From: an uncultured Bacilli bacterium
Lineage (GTDB): Bacteria > Bacillota_I > Bacilli_A > Izemoplasmatales > UBA1188
DNA: 51,151 nt
NCBI GenBank assembly: GCA_905235635.1
Contig: CAJOMC010000004.1
Span: 1 to 51,151, forward strand
Direction of reading: 5' to 3'
In this document: positions 12,672-18,345 of the stretch, in pieces
How the letters are laid out: each line of letters begins with the position of its first letter
Position numbering within the stretch: position 1 is the stretch's first letter
Program-made: the position numbers and the translations under genes
Notes under the pieces: model-generated
Seen by the model: the letters and a program-made list of their open reading frames with translations, nothing else
The model's database searches: none
What the model was told of the DNA's origin: nothing

Positions 12672-13312
12672 TGCATTTAAGAAAAGTTAAGAATGCATCT
12701 TTAATTATTGATGAAGCTAAAGATGTATGTATAGTTAACCCAACTGAATATAAAGGAAACTGGTTGTCTTTCTATCCAAGTGCTAAAAAAATAGTACTTG
12801 AGATAGGGATGGGAAAAGGCCAATATCTCACAAATCTCGCTCTTTTAAACAAAGATGTTTTATATCTTGGAATGGAAAAGATGGATTCAGTGATTTGTCG
12901 TGCTATCCCTAAAGTTAAAGATTATAATTTAAGTAATTTAATCCTTATTAAAACGGACGCGATTAATCTTTCTTCATGTTTTATGCCAAATGAAGTAGAT
13001 ACAATTTATTTATCATTCCCAGATCCTTGGCCTAAGTCAAGACATGACAAAAGAAGACTAACACATCCAAAATTCTTAAAACTATATAAAGAGATACTAA
13101 CTACTAAAGGTACTTTAAGACTAAAGACAGATAATGTTGATTTATATAATTATTCACTAGAAACTATGGCTTTATATTTAGATAACCCAAAATATGGTGA
13201 ATATATTCATGAAGAGAATGAACCTAAAACTGAGTTTGAAGAGAAATATTTAAAACTAGGCAAGAAGATATATTTTATTGAAGGTAAATTTAAAGATGAG
13301 AATCCTCTTTGA
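12671..13312 (+). CDS. trmB: tRNA (guanine-N7-)-methyltransferase TrmB
   Basis: A 213-residue SAM-dependent enzyme making m7G46 in tRNA. It has the SAM-binding loop LEIGMGKGQYL (about 40-50) and the family hallmark FPDPWPKSRHDKRRL (about 117-131), which carries the catalytic Asp and substrate-binding residues. The C-terminal TEFEEKYLKLGKKIY completes the family pattern. The start codon overlaps the pepV stop (TAATG), so the genes are coupled. Confidence 0.96.
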   Translation: MHLRKVKNASLIIDEAKDVCIVNPTEYKGNWLSFYPSAKKIVLEIGMGKGQYLTNLALLNKDVLYLGMEKMDSVICRAIPKVKDYNLSNLILIKTDAINLSSCFMPNEVDTIYLSFPDPWPKSRHDKRRLTHPKFLKLYKEILTTKGTLRLKTDNVDLYNYSLETMALYLDNPKYGEYIHEENEPKTEFEEKYLKLGKKIYFIEGKFKDENPL

Positions 13313-14018
13313 TATTGGAAACACAAACGTAAAAGTTAATACCGATGGTCAAACATCATTTTATAGTAATGACTCTTTAAAAAAGTCATTACCCTTATCT
13401 TTACCTAATATAAGCGATGAAGTGGTTGCCTATATATCAAGCGTAAATAAGGATGCGTTTGAAATAGTAAAAGAAATACTAATTGATAAATATTGTCATA
13501 AACTTACCCTTAATAAGATTGGTCCTCTAAATACAAAATCAATCACCTATATTGATGAAAGTATGAAAGAGGAACTTGGAAGTGATATATATTTCGCACT
13601 AAATAGTTCTATTAAATATAGTAAGACTTTCTTAAATATTGATTTTGGCACAGCCCTTACATTTAACCTTGTGATCGATTCTAAATACACGGGTTGCGCA
13701 ATAGTGCCTGGTGTATATACATCATATAATGCCTTAATCAGTAAAGCATCCCTACTTAAAGATGTGGAACTCTCAAACGAGAACGTAAAACCACTTGGCT
13801 TAAACACTAAAGAGGCAATCACCTCTGGAATTATTCAAGGATATGCAAGTTTAGTTGATGAACATATAAAAAGAATTAAGGAAGAATATAAATTAGATAA
13901 TCTAGATATATACGCTACAGGTGGAGCGTATAACCTTATATCTAAATACTTAAAAACTAAAGTTATTTATAAAGAAGATTTAGTTTTTAGTGGAATGCTT
14001 AATATAATAGGTGAATAA
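13296..14018 (+). CDS. coaX: Type III pantothenate kinase CoaX
   Basis: A 240-residue ASKHA-fold kinase for the first step of CoA synthesis. Motifs are DIGNTNVK (residues 5-12, phosphate loop), NIDFGTALTFN (about 113-123) and the substrate region GCAIVPGV. The ATG at 13296 gives the expected M-R-I-L-F-D-I-G-N-T start and overlaps trmB by 17 bases. An upstream ATG at 13278 adds only seven residues. The last CoA enzyme, CoaE, is found two genes downstream fused to MutM. Confidence 0.92.
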   Translation: MRILFDIGNTNVKVNTDGQTSFYSNDSLKKSLPLSLPNISDEVVAYISSVNKDAFEIVKEILIDKYCHKLTLNKIGPLNTKSITYIDESMKEELGSDIYFALNSSIKYSKTFLNIDFGTALTFNLVIDSKYTGCAIVPGVYTSYNALISKASLLKDVELSNENVKPLGLNTKEAITSGIIQGYASLVDEHIKRIKEEYKLDNLDIYATGGAYNLISKYLKTKVIYKEDLVFSGMLNIIGE

Positions 14019-14019
14019 G

Positions 14020-16635
14020 ATGAAAAAACTACTTATTGTGGACGGATATAATGTAATGTTTAGAGCGTATTACGCTACTGCGTCTATGGGAAATCTTATG
14101 AGAAATAAGAATGGGTTTCCTACAAATATGATCTATGGATTCATTAATATTCTAACTAAAGTGAAAAATGATAATTATACTCATATCGCTATCGCATTTG
14201 ATGCGGGTGGTAAAACACGTCGCCATAAAATGTATAGTGAGTATAAGGCAGGGCGTGAAAAAACACCACAAGAATTAATTGATCAAATCCCATATGTATT
14301 TAAATATCTAGATGCGATAAATATTAAATACTTTATGAATGAAGACTATGAAGCCGACGATATTGTCGCATCACTTTCAAAGAAGTTTGATTACTTTGAT
14401 GAAGTGGATGTTTTATCTAATGATAATGACTTATTCCAATTAATTTCAAAGAACCATTTTCAACTTTACACAAGACAAAAAGAAACAATTAAGTATTCAG
14501 TTGATATATTAAAAGAAGAAAAAGGTATAACTCCGTCGCAGATTCCAGATTATAAGGGATTAATTGGCGATTCATCCGATAACCTTAAGGGTGTTCAAGG
14601 TATTGGCCCTGTGACAGCGGCTAAGCTTTTAAGTGAGTTTGGCTCACTAGAGGGAATTTACGAATCAATAGATAGCATTACTGGTAAGAATAAAGATAAG
14701 TTAATTGAAGGGCGCGATCAAGCATTCTTCACTAAAGGAATGGCTCTACTTGACCCAACATACGCCATTCCATATGATGAAGACTATTTCTTAGTAGATG
14801 AACCTGATTATGAAAAACTAAACAATCTATTCAGCGAATTAGATTTTAATTCCTTTATGAAAAAAATTCCTCAAAAAAGAATTAAAGCTAAATTTGAATA
14901 TAAAGTAGTTGATGAAGCAAGCGACCTATCTTCTATTATTGATGAAGAAGGTATTAATCACCTCTATCTTGAAAACCTAGGTGAAAATTATCACACTGCA
15001 TCTCCAATTGGTTTCGGATTAACCAATAAATTTGGTTGTTTCTTTATTCCATATGAAATAGGGATTAATTCATTTGATTTCAGCTTATTTTTAAGTGATG
15101 ACAATATTAAGAAATCAGTCTATGATTACAAAAAAATGTATGTGACGCTAGCTCATGACAATATAATTTTGTCTGGAGTATATTTTGATTTGCTTCTTGC
15201 TTCTTATCTAATTAACCCAGATTTAACCAAAGATGATTTTAAGATAATCACTAATCATTTTGGGTATTCTGAACTTTCTTTTGATGAAGAAGTATATGGA
15301 AAAAGAGGAAGAGAAGAATTACCTCTTTCAATAATCTATGAGGAACATATCGCTAAAAAATCTTTTGCGATGAGTTTAATATATGAAAACACATTATCTG
15401 AGATTAAAAATAATGACCAAGAAAAACTCTTAAAAGAAATAGAGATTCCACTATCTAAAACGTTAGCCAAGATGGAACTTAAAGGATTAAGAGTGGATAA
15501 GGATGAGCTTGATAGATATGAAGAAAGACTTGTATCTGAATTAAACGAAATAGAAAAAGAGATATATGAATTATCAGGACATCCTTTCAACATTAACTCA
15601 CCTAAACAGTTAGGCACAGTATTATTTGAGGAATTAGGATTAAATAGCGGAAAGAAGACTAAGACAGGTTATTCCACAGATGCAGAAGTACTAGAAAGTT
15701 TAAGAGAAATTCACCCTATTATTGATAAAGTGTTGAGATATAGAATGTTATCTAAACTTGAAGGCACATATGTGGTTGGAGTTAGAAATGCGATGAATGA
15801 ACTAAGTGACTCGCATATCCACACCATCTACAAACAAGCCCTAACTGATACAGGAAGACTCTCGAGTGTGGAGCCTAATCTTCAGAATCTACCCGCAAGA
15901 AGAATGGAAGCATCAGAATTTAAGAAGGTATTTATCGCAGAAGATGATTCATATCTTATGAGTTCAGATTATTCTCAAATAGAATTAAGGGTGCTTGCCC
16001 ATATGTCAGGTGATCCTAATTTAATTAAAGCCTTTAAAGAAGGCGATGATATACATGAGGCTACCGCAAAAGCCATCTTCCGTAAGAGTGAAGTCACAAA
16101 AGAAGAAAGAAGACAAGCTAAGGCCGTCAACTTTGGAATAGTATATGGTATCTCATCATGGGGACTTGCCCAGGATGTTCAAATTAGCCCAAAAGAAGCA
16201 CAAGATTTTATCAATAGATATCATGAATCATTCCCATTAATTGGTCCATTTACTGCATCACTTATTAAATGCGCTGAAGATAATGGATATGTATCTACTA
16301 TTTTTAATAGAAGAAGATATATAAGAGATATTCATGCGTCTAACTATAACTTAAGAGAATTCTCTAAACGTACTGCGATGAATGCGCCAATTCAAGGTAC
16401 AGGCGCAGATATATTAAAGCTTGCGATGGTATCCCTTGATAAAGCGATTGAAGAGAATCATCTTCACGCAAAATTAATATTAACTATTCATGATGAAATA
16501 GTATTAAATGTACCTAAGAATGAAATAGATAAAACTATTAAAATAACCGAAGACGTAATGACTAGTGTCGTAAATCTTAAGGTACCACTAGTTGTCTCCA
16601 CATCTTACGGTATGAATTTATTTGAGGCGAAATAA
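14020..16635 (+). CDS. polA: DNA polymerase I
   Basis: An 871-residue repair and Okazaki-fragment polymerase. The N-terminal 5' nuclease domain (about 1-290) shows LIVDGYNVMFRAYYA, YEADD and GDSSDN. The middle 3'-5' exonuclease domain seems inactive: where a D-x-E would be expected it reads LYLENLGEN, as in Bacillus PolI. The polymerase domain is intact, with motif A DYSQIELR, motif B RRQAKAVNFGIVYG and motif C IHDEIV. ATG 14020 is preferred to the in-frame GTG at 14011 because the GTG lies inside coaX. It heads the polA-mutM-coaE block typical of Bacilli. Confidence 0.97.
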   Translation: MKKLLIVDGYNVMFRAYYATASMGNLMRNKNGFPTNMIYGFINILTKVKNDNYTHIAIAFDAGGKTRRHKMYSEYKAGREKTPQELIDQIPYVFKYLDAINIKYFMNEDYEADDIVASLSKKFDYFDEVDVLSNDNDLFQLISKNHFQLYTRQKETIKYSVDILKEEKGITPSQIPDYKGLIGDSSDNLKGVQGIGPVTAAKLLSEFGSLEGIYESIDSITGKNKDKLIEGRDQAFFTKGMALLDPTYAIPYDEDYFLVDEPDYEKLNNLFSELDFNSFMKKIPQKRIKAKFEYKVVDEASDLSSIIDEEGINHLYLENLGENYHTASPIGFGLTNKFGCFFIPYEIGINSFDFSLFLSDDNIKKSVYDYKKMYVTLAHDNIILSGVYFDLLLASYLINPDLTKDDFKIITNHFGYSELSFDEEVYGKRGREELPLSIIYEEHIAKKSFAMSLIYENTLSEIKNNDQEKLLKEIEIPLSKTLAKMELKGLRVDKDELDRYEERLVSELNEIEKEIYELSGHPFNINSPKQLGTVLFEELGLNSGKKTKTGYSTDAEVLESLREIHPIIDKVLRYRMLSKLEGTYVVGVRNAMNELSDSHIHTIYKQALTDTGRLSSVEPNLQNLPARRMEASEFKKVFIAEDDSYLMSSDYSQIELRVLAHMSGDPNLIKAFKEGDDIHEATAKAIFRKSEVTKEERRQAKAVNFGIVYGISSWGLAQDVQISPKEAQDFINRYHESFPLIGPFTASLIKCAEDNGYVSTIFNRRRYIRDIHASNYNLREFSKRTAMNAPIQGTGADILKLAMVSLDKAIEENHLHAKLILTIHDEIVLNVPKNEIDKTIKITEDVMTSVVNLKVPLVVSTSYGMNLFEAK

Positions 16636-16639
16636 GACA

Positions 16640-17989
16640 ATGCCAGAACTTCCAGAAGTTGAAACTGTAAAACTAAAACTTGAACCTTTCATTATAGGAA
16701 AGACTATTAAGAGTCTTGATATTTTTTATGATAAATATCTAGAACTTAAGGTAATTCAAGGTGAGACAATAAATAAAATAGATAGATTAGGTAAATATTT
16801 AATATTTACTCTTGATAATTATAAAGTTGTATCACACTTAAGAATGGAAGGAAAATATAGAATTAAGGATTTAGACTACAAAAAGGAAAAACATGATTTA
16901 GTCTTCTTTAATTTTGATTCATTCAGGTTAGTTTATAATGATACAAGGAAGTTTGGGGTATTTCATGTATTTGGTAAAGACATTGATATTTATAATATAG
17001 AACCACTAGTAAATGTCGGAAAAGAGCCATTTTACATTAGTCCAGACGAATTCTTTAATTCACTACATAAATCTCACGAAAAGATTAAAACTGCACTTCT
17101 TAATCAATCTATTATGTCGGGTCTTGGGAATATTTATGCAGACGAAGTATTATATTTATCACATATTCACCCACTAAGAATTGCATCTAGTATTACTAAA
17201 GAAGAATCAGAAATACTAGTTAAATCATCAATTGATGTATTAAATAAAGCAATAAATGCAGGTGGCACAACAATTAAATCCTTTGAATCTTTCAACAATG
17301 AATCAGGCCACTTCCAATCATCCCTTCTTGTCCATTTAAGAGAAGGTGAAAGATGTAAGATGTGTAATAACGTGATAAGAAAGATAAAAGTAAATGGAAG
17401 AAGTTCATACTTTTGCCCAACATGCCAAAAAATAAGAGATTATAAAACATACGCTATTACTGGAACCTATGCGAGTGGTAAATCTTTAGCTCTATCTATG
17501 CTTAAAGAAAAAGGATATATGACTTTATCTTGTGATGACATATATAATGAACTCTTTATATCTAATAATAAAATGAAAAAAGAAATAATGGATGAATTTA
17601 ATACCTTAGATAAAAAAGAGTTAAGGGATATAGTTTATTCTAGTGAAGAAAGAAATGAGAAATTAAAAGAAATTACTCACAAATATATTTTAAATAAGTT
17701 ATTTGAAGAAATAGAGTCTAGTAATGAAACAAAAATCTTTATCGAGGTGCCAATTTTATTTGAATCTCATCTAGAAAAAGCATTTGATTATTCTATTTGT
17801 GTTTATTCAAACAGAGAAGAATCTAATTTTATAGAAAAGAACGTAGATTCTAATATAAAAGAAAAGGTTGATAAAAATCAATTTAGTAAAGAATTTAAAA
17901 AAACACACTCAGACTACGTATTATATAATATAAGTGATATAGAAAATTTAAAAAATAATTTAAGTAAATTATTGGAGGAACTAAATTGA
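16640..17989 (+). CDS. mutM-coaE: MutM (formamidopyrimidine-DNA glycosylase) fused to CoaE (dephospho-CoA kinase)
   Basis: A 449-residue fusion. Residues 1-275 are MutM, which removes 8-oxoguanine: MPELPEVE with catalytic Pro2 and Glu3, RLGKYL lysine, SHLRMEGKY, NDTRKFG, SGLGNIYADE, and the zinc finger CKMC...CPTC (about 250-273). With no linker beyond a few residues, a CoaE domain begins: P-loop GTYASGKS (about 282-289), SCDDIYNEL, and EVPILFES (about 371). The kinase part is short (about 170 residues against about 200) and the lid lacks the usual arginine-rich stretch. The start at 16640 is fixed by the need for Pro at position 2. Both genes are separate neighbours in most Bacilli. Confidence 0.92.
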   Translation: MPELPEVETVKLKLEPFIIGKTIKSLDIFYDKYLELKVIQGETINKIDRLGKYLIFTLDNYKVVSHLRMEGKYRIKDLDYKKEKHDLVFFNFDSFRLVYNDTRKFGVFHVFGKDIDIYNIEPLVNVGKEPFYISPDEFFNSLHKSHEKIKTALLNQSIMSGLGNIYADEVLYLSHIHPLRIASSITKEESEILVKSSIDVLNKAINAGGTTIKSFESFNNESGHFQSSLLVHLREGERCKMCNNVIRKIKVNGRSSYFCPTCQKIRDYKTYAITGTYASGKSLALSMLKEKGYMTLSCDDIYNELFISNNKMKKEIMDEFNTLDKKELRDIVYSSEERNEKLKEITHKYILNKLFEEIESSNETKIFIEVPILFESHLEKAFDYSICVYSNREESNFIEKNVDSNIKEKVDKNQFSKEFKKTHSDYVLYNISDIENLKNNLSKLLEELN

Positions 17990-18345
17990 GCATTTTTTCT
18001 ACTGAAGTCGAAACAAAGGAAATACACAAAAAAGAACAACTTAGAACTCATTACTACAGAAATAATTTTAATGATGTATTAAATGCGCTAAATAAAATAG
18101 CGGAAGAAGATAATATGGAAGTTCAACACGTAGATAAAAAATGGGGTGAAATATATATTATCGCAAACGGTTATGAAGTAATCGCTATAGTAAACCAAAT
18201 TACTCCAATCGAAACTGCGGTTGATTTCAAGGTTAACTATTTCGTTACATTTGGATTTAATAGGCCAAGTAAAAGAGCCATTCATCTATATGAAAGACTA
18301 GACTCAATGCTTAACTTTAAGGGGACAATGTTACACGTAAACTAA
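17986..18345 (+). CDS. Unknown 119-residue protein between coaE and dnaB
   Basis: A soluble protein of unknown family. It starts with TTG: GGAGG (17974-17978) lies 7 bases upstream, and the TTG overlaps the TGA of mutM-coaE (TTGA), so the unusual start is well supported. The N-terminal 45 residues are helical and charged. The rest alternates short beta strands (WGEIYIIANGYEVIAIVN, AVDFKVNYFVTFGF), ending with a helix. It has no Cys, so it is not NrdR, which holds this position in Bacillus. Its place before dnaB and dnaI suggests a replication or nucleotide role, but that is only context. Confidence 0.8.
   Translation: MSIFSTEVETKEIHKKEQLRTHYYRNNFNDVLNALNKIAEEDNMEVQHVDKKWGEIYIIANGYEVIAIVNQITPIETAVDFKVNYFVTFGFNRPSKRAIHLYERLDSMLNFKGTMLHVN

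Follow-up and report, generated by a model that had tools for sequence, protein, structure and literature searches.

Dephospho-CoA kinase (CoaE) has been described in one chain with another domain in two systems, the CoaE-UPF0157 protein of M. tuberculosis and the mammalian CoaD-CoaE protein (CoA synthase), in which the partners are a folding helper and the preceding enzyme of the pathway, respectively (PMC2765170). In the M. tuberculosis enzyme, Arg140 and Gln144 have been assigned, in that enzyme's own numbering, to holding the phosphates of dephospho-CoA (PMC2765170). In unfused related Bacilli, mutM and coaE are separate adjacent genes, in two frames with two starts. The window analysed here, the whole of a 51,151-nucleotide stretch of DNA from an uncultured Bacilli bacterium of the order Izemoplasmatales, keeps the gene order and near-zero spacing of these relatives, but carries both enzymes in a single frame. 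As in the two described systems, CoaE shares its chain with another domain; unlike in those systems, the partner is a DNA repair enzyme and lies on the N-terminal side. The features of the gene are as follows.

16640..17989, + strand: fused mutM-coaE gene, 449 aa, ATG at 16640, stop TGA at 17987-17989
16640..17431, + strand: MutM/Fpg part, residues 1-264, from Pfam domains and invariant residues
17345..17431, + strand: MutM C-terminal zinc finger, residues 236-264 (PF06827, E 7e-9)
17432..17443, + strand: linker of about 4-5 residues; last zinc Cys at residue 262, first P-loop residue G275
17444..17986, + strand: CoaE (dephospho-CoA kinase) part, residues 269-449, from TIGR00152, Pfam and fold matches to 8dv0, 2if2 and 1uf9
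17462..17485, + strand: CoaE P-loop GTYASGKS, residues 275-282 (motif GxxxxGK[ST])
17534..17536, + strand: catalytic Asp of CoaE, D299, present in 155/155 sequences of the comparison set
17807..17881, + strand: CoaE lid region, with two lid arginines out of register and Q414 kept; block mean pLDDT 58

The frame from 16640 to 17989 was uninterrupted, with no internal stop, and encoded a complete MutM (residues 1-264) followed by CoaE (residues 269-449). The original prediction of one continuous frame, with a few residues between zinc finger and P-loop, was thus borne out by the frame itself, by the Pfam and NCBIfam matches and by a linker of about 5 residues. All four Pfam domains exceeded their curated cut-offs: Fapy_DNA_glyco (1-107), H2TH (PF06831; 134-214), zf-FPG (236-264) and CoaE (272-434). 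The NCBIfam equivalog TIGR00577 (fpg) scored 275 bits, as compared with a cut-off of 203, and matched MutM/Fpg over its whole length, while the dephospho-CoA kinase equivalog TIGR00152 scored 78 bits against a cut-off of 65.6 over residues 272-442. No in-frame ATG, GTG or TTG was found between the zinc finger and the P-loop of the window gene, so that CoaE is without a usual start codon of its own. The fused gene was the sole CoaE match (PF01121) in the genome, which is 97.9% complete, and the sole MutM homologue detected there. The AlphaFold model of the whole protein had a pLDDT of 93.4 and a pTM of 0.84, with less confidence at the lid and in one MutM loop.

Since the genome is a 44-contig draft, an assembly or sequencing error might have joined two genes. 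The same fusion was found, at 50-54% identity to the window protein, in the five other genomes of the genus (g1) with an intact locus (G001-G004 and G006); in the seventh, G005, the locus was split by contig ends. Because the frame is continuous in 6/6 g1 genomes with an unbroken locus, the window genome included, and recurs in many other fused genera, an artefact is ruled out and its probability is negligible. The search for the same domain order in related genomes that had been proposed therefore succeeded, and the contrary case envisaged with it, relatives of high identity with separate genes, was absent within the genus; separate genes were found only in other families, whose MutM is ∼40–49% identical.

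The MutM part resembled known MutM/Fpg enzymes (TIGR00577; L. lactis Fpg 1pm5, MutM 1r2y) over the whole length, with an N-terminal Pro-Glu, the H2TH domain and a C4 zinc finger, and differed from them in that a second enzyme follows the zinc finger on the same chain. The MutM half of the AlphaFold model matched the 1pm5 and 1r2y structures, the match to L. lactis Fpg having an identity of ∼41%. P2, E3, K52, R103, F105, N164, R254 and the four zinc cysteines (C239, C242, C259 and C262) were invariant among the 13 fused proteins of the order, all 13 of which begin with MPE, providing the N-terminal Pro and Glu3. We take the roles of these residues, catalytic, intercalating or zinc-binding, from known Fpg enzymes. 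The MutM part is predicted to be an 8-oxoG glycosylase/AP lyase that has probably kept its activity. The best match to a MutY model in the genome, a 211-aa frame (G000:C7:93504-94040; L224), reached 79 bits, far under the cut-off of 286.5, so that the cell may have MutM without MutY.

The CoaE part shared with characterized enzymes (TIGR00152; R. felis 8dv0, A. aeolicus 2if2) the P-loop, the catalytic Asp, the PLLFE motif, the lid Gln and the fold; when it was modelled alone, all of the best 28 fold matches were dephospho-CoA kinases (8dv0, TMq 0.89). The P-loop was invariant in the 155 CoaE sequences compared. PLLFE and the lid Gln were intact in the CoaE parts of g1, this Gln (of RxxxQ) being Q414 in the window protein and kept in 6/6 g1 proteins. 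In addition to lacking its own start, the CoaE part differed from known CoaE in the DxD motif, whose first Asp aligns with Ser, and in the two lid arginines (QxxR(L/M)xxR), which are conserved in relatives, though not an established hallmark of CoaE, and are not kept in register in g1. The first of these was present in 1/6 g1 proteins as compared with 102/102 unfused relatives, and the second in 0/6 as compared with 92/102, in a region where both alignment and model are weakest. In most g1 proteins a Lys or Arg was seen, by eye, one position off the lost Arg. The lid was altered differently in the other old fused clade, that of families f9 and f20, where the Gln was found in 0/24 proteins as compared with 102/102 unfused relatives. 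CoaE scores in g1 were 68-106 bits, as compared with 156-205 for full-length matches elsewhere in the order. The loss of lid arginines together with these low scores means that CoaE activity in g1 could be reduced or changed. Comparison of two congeners (L003 and L004) gave a dN/dS of ∼0.06 for MutM and 0.14 for CoaE, indicating that both halves are under purifying selection. The ratio of CoaE to MutM branch lengths was 1.41, as compared with 1.24 in unfused relatives; this modest rise led us to reject a strong acceleration of CoaE after fusion.

The surrounding genes place the fusion in a run comprising a trmB-type methyltransferase, type III pantothenate kinase, polA, mutM-coaE, a small ORF, a DnaB_2-type gene, a DnaI-type gene and thrS. 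Its nearest members are listed below.

13296..14018, + strand: type III pantothenate kinase (coaX), in the same gene run
14020..16635, + strand: polA, ending 4 nt before mutM-coaE
17986..18345, + strand: next ORF, 119 aa, with a TTG start that overlaps the fusion stop and no Pfam family above cut-off

This order was kept in relatives, with polA just 5′ of the fusion and the small ORF 3′ of it in those g1 loci that were read in this direction; the 119-aa ORF is also found in the g1 relatives L003 and L004. Elsewhere in the CoA pathway, coaD was present in the window genome, and CoaBC was matched in none of 26 genomes of the order, the window genome among them, as compared with 14/14 control genomes. 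With CoaBC undetected while CoaD (in the window genome) and CoaE are present, the cell may rely on salvaged late CoA precursors of the pantetheine type.

The distribution of fused and separate genes was surveyed in 61 related genomes, in an order of 90 genomes and in a class sample of 159 genomes. Within the order, the fused frame was found in g1, g6 (5/5, of which one has its MutM part interrupted by a stop), g11 (2/2) and g19 (2/2), and the remaining genera whose locus was readable had separate genes. In the class sample, fused proteins were found in families f7 (7/8 read), f9 (14/14 with a match) and f20 (3/3), and also in f12 (g61 and g98), f21 (g57 and g120) and f22 (g127); unfused genera coexist with fused ones in f7, f12, f21 and f22. 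The fusion occurs in at least nine families across the class, several with unfused genera as well, and it was seen in public contigs from uncultured Bacilli (L032, L033, L035, L036, L037 and L041). Some candidates were discarded. The 501-aa frame of G097 looked fused by length and was found to be unfused, and a second CoaE in G063 (515-aa frame) was a fused copy grouping with the f9/f20 type, probably a contaminant. Genus g132 (f12; genomes of 0.5–0.9 Mb) was ruled out as a carrier, since all 16 genomes had a stand-alone MutM frame (273–292 aa) and none of the 16 a CoaE match. Another f12 genus, g130, has a frame of fused length and is a further candidate carrier. No CoaE match was found in 16/19 sampled genomes of family f13.

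A tree of MutM plus CoaE (104 rows) implied 11 changes between the fused and separate states, or 8 when unsupported branches were collapsed; shuffling the labels on the same tree gave a mean of 30 changes (24-35). The tree is unrooted, and such changes do not tell gain from loss. Since single fused genera nest within unfused families, it is simpler to assume several gains, and a single ancient origin of all fusions was rejected given the 8-11 state changes needed. An AU test also rejected g6 and g11 as one clade (p 0.0008). Union of g1 with the f9/f20 fused clade was not rejected (p 0.47 and 0.33), so the g1 fusion may or may not be an event of its own, separate from that of f9/f20. The suggestion that the fusion would make a good lineage marker holds within the genus, where it is fixed, and fails at higher rank, where a minimum of 8-11 state changes on the gene tree makes the character homoplastic.

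How the genes could be joined is apparent from the unfused relatives. In some, no more than a few codons separate the start of coaE from the end of mutM, and the two frequently share a frame (e.g. L008, L010 and L021); elsewhere coaE opens in a different frame and overlaps the mutM stop. One stop loss or one indel therefore suffices to join them, and the idea that a simple junction mutation could do so gains support from these near-touching or overlapping genes. In g19 (L134 and L020) the fused frame keeps an ATG eight codons before the P-loop, preceded in L134, one of the two g19 genomes, by GGAAGGAG, which resembles a ribosome-binding site of the GGAGG type. This genus has the appearance of an intermediate stage, and its genes may yield both the fusion and free CoaE. 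No start was present near the junction in the window gene and 4/5 other g1 proteins; L003 has an ATG there. Adjacent junctions behaved differently. The mutM-coaE junction was fused in 53/146 cases, whereas in the same loci the junction of mutM with the preceding gene, within 80 nt in 132/139, was fused in 0/132, and that of coaE with the next gene, within 60 nt in 38/48, was fused in 0/38, the latter being a small and phylogenetically clustered control. The nucleophile of MutM is its N-terminal Pro; MutM can therefore only be the first partner, which explains why it is never fused to the gene before it.

We consider it probable that the gene makes a constitutive bifunctional MutM-CoaE protein, which arose by a simple junction mutation and is near-neutral or slightly beneficial. 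In an ancestral operon, coaE would have directly followed mutM; the two would have been joined when the mutM stop was lost, if coaE was in frame with it, or when a short indel arose where stop and start overlapped, and the internal coaE start would then have been erased. One protein would be translated from the mutM start and would fold as an Fpg/MutM glycosylase with its N-terminal Pro nucleophile free and a dephospho-CoA kinase on the zinc-finger end. Both predicted activities would probably be retained, independently of each other, the CoaE part being the cell's sole candidate for the last step of CoA synthesis. Fixation may have come through low cost, with a possible small gain from equal dosage or folding, so that joining would be an easy genetic accident, well tolerated or perhaps useful. 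Against this explanation stand the lost lid arginines and low CoaE scores of g1, and also the recurrence: a minimum of 8-11 state changes, while two neighbouring junctions of similar tightness stayed unfused, suggests more than purely random accident, although the control junction after coaE is small and clustered. That the fusion was repeatedly selected in the class for a real advantage, in CoaE folding or dosage or in CoA-repair coupling, with the kinase lid of old fusions remodelled accordingly, appears to us decidedly unlikely. Selection specifically for coupling of 8-oxoguanine repair with CoA supply or redox state would account for the same domain order arising from many independent origins with none at the flanking junctions, and CoaE protein does rise in a B. 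subtilis mutant without MutM, MutY and MutT (PMC10968225). That rise may be a polarity effect, given that mutM lies upstream of coaE there; moreover, touching genes make junction mutations trivially available, and no regulatory element or shared ligand was seen. We give coupling only a slim chance, and the link between redox or CoA state and 8-oxoguanine repair offered as speculation in the original prediction finds no sign in the sequence.

The state of the lid raises another possibility, that CoaE is degenerating or repurposed in g1 and, in a different way, in f9/f20, making CoA poorly and being kept, for example, to stabilize MutM, or accepting another substrate or regulator. The lost lid arginines of g1 and lost Gln of f9/f20 point in this direction, as Gln144 and nearby arginines have been described as stabilizing the dephospho-CoA phosphates in the M. 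tuberculosis enzyme (PMC2765170), and the CoA pathway is already partial in the 26 order genomes in which CoaBC was undetected. We nevertheless find such a kinase unlikely: g1 retains the P-loop, the catalytic Asp, the PLLFE motif and the lid Gln, a basic residue stands next to the position of the lost Arg in most of its proteins, the CoaE half is under purifying selection with branches only modestly lengthened, and there is no second CoaE in the genome. The bifunctional protein with both activities probably kept remains our preferred interpretation.

No paper naming a MutM-CoaE fusion was found in the open-access literature; it may be on record in a subscription journal or on the domain-architecture pages of databases. 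The protein combines the domains of two known enzymes, and nothing is unusual in how they would be joined. What was not expected is that the fusion arose repeatedly within a single bacterial class, many lineages of which carry enzymes of unrelated pathways on one chain. The series from touching genes, through fused genes with an internal start (g19), to obligate fusions provides a natural experiment on how fusions originate and persist, and the loss of conserved CoaE lid residues in two ways, while P-loop and catalytic Asp stay fixed, is a testable case. There is also a warning for annotation. The sole CoaE of a cell may sit in a protein named ‘formamidopyrimidine-DNA glycosylase’, and CoaE can consequently be wrongly scored as missing.

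One locus carried an interrupted frame, and another may do so. In L009 (g6, G034) a TAA at ∼1738-1740 breaks off the MutM part past residue 79, with the CoaE part open, and represents either a sequencing error or loss of MutM. In L083 (2707-3543), from an uncultured Erysipelotrichaceae, MutM ends with ‘...CPICQKSKARPFFL’ before its stop, like the junction of fused relatives, and is possibly a frameshifted fusion.
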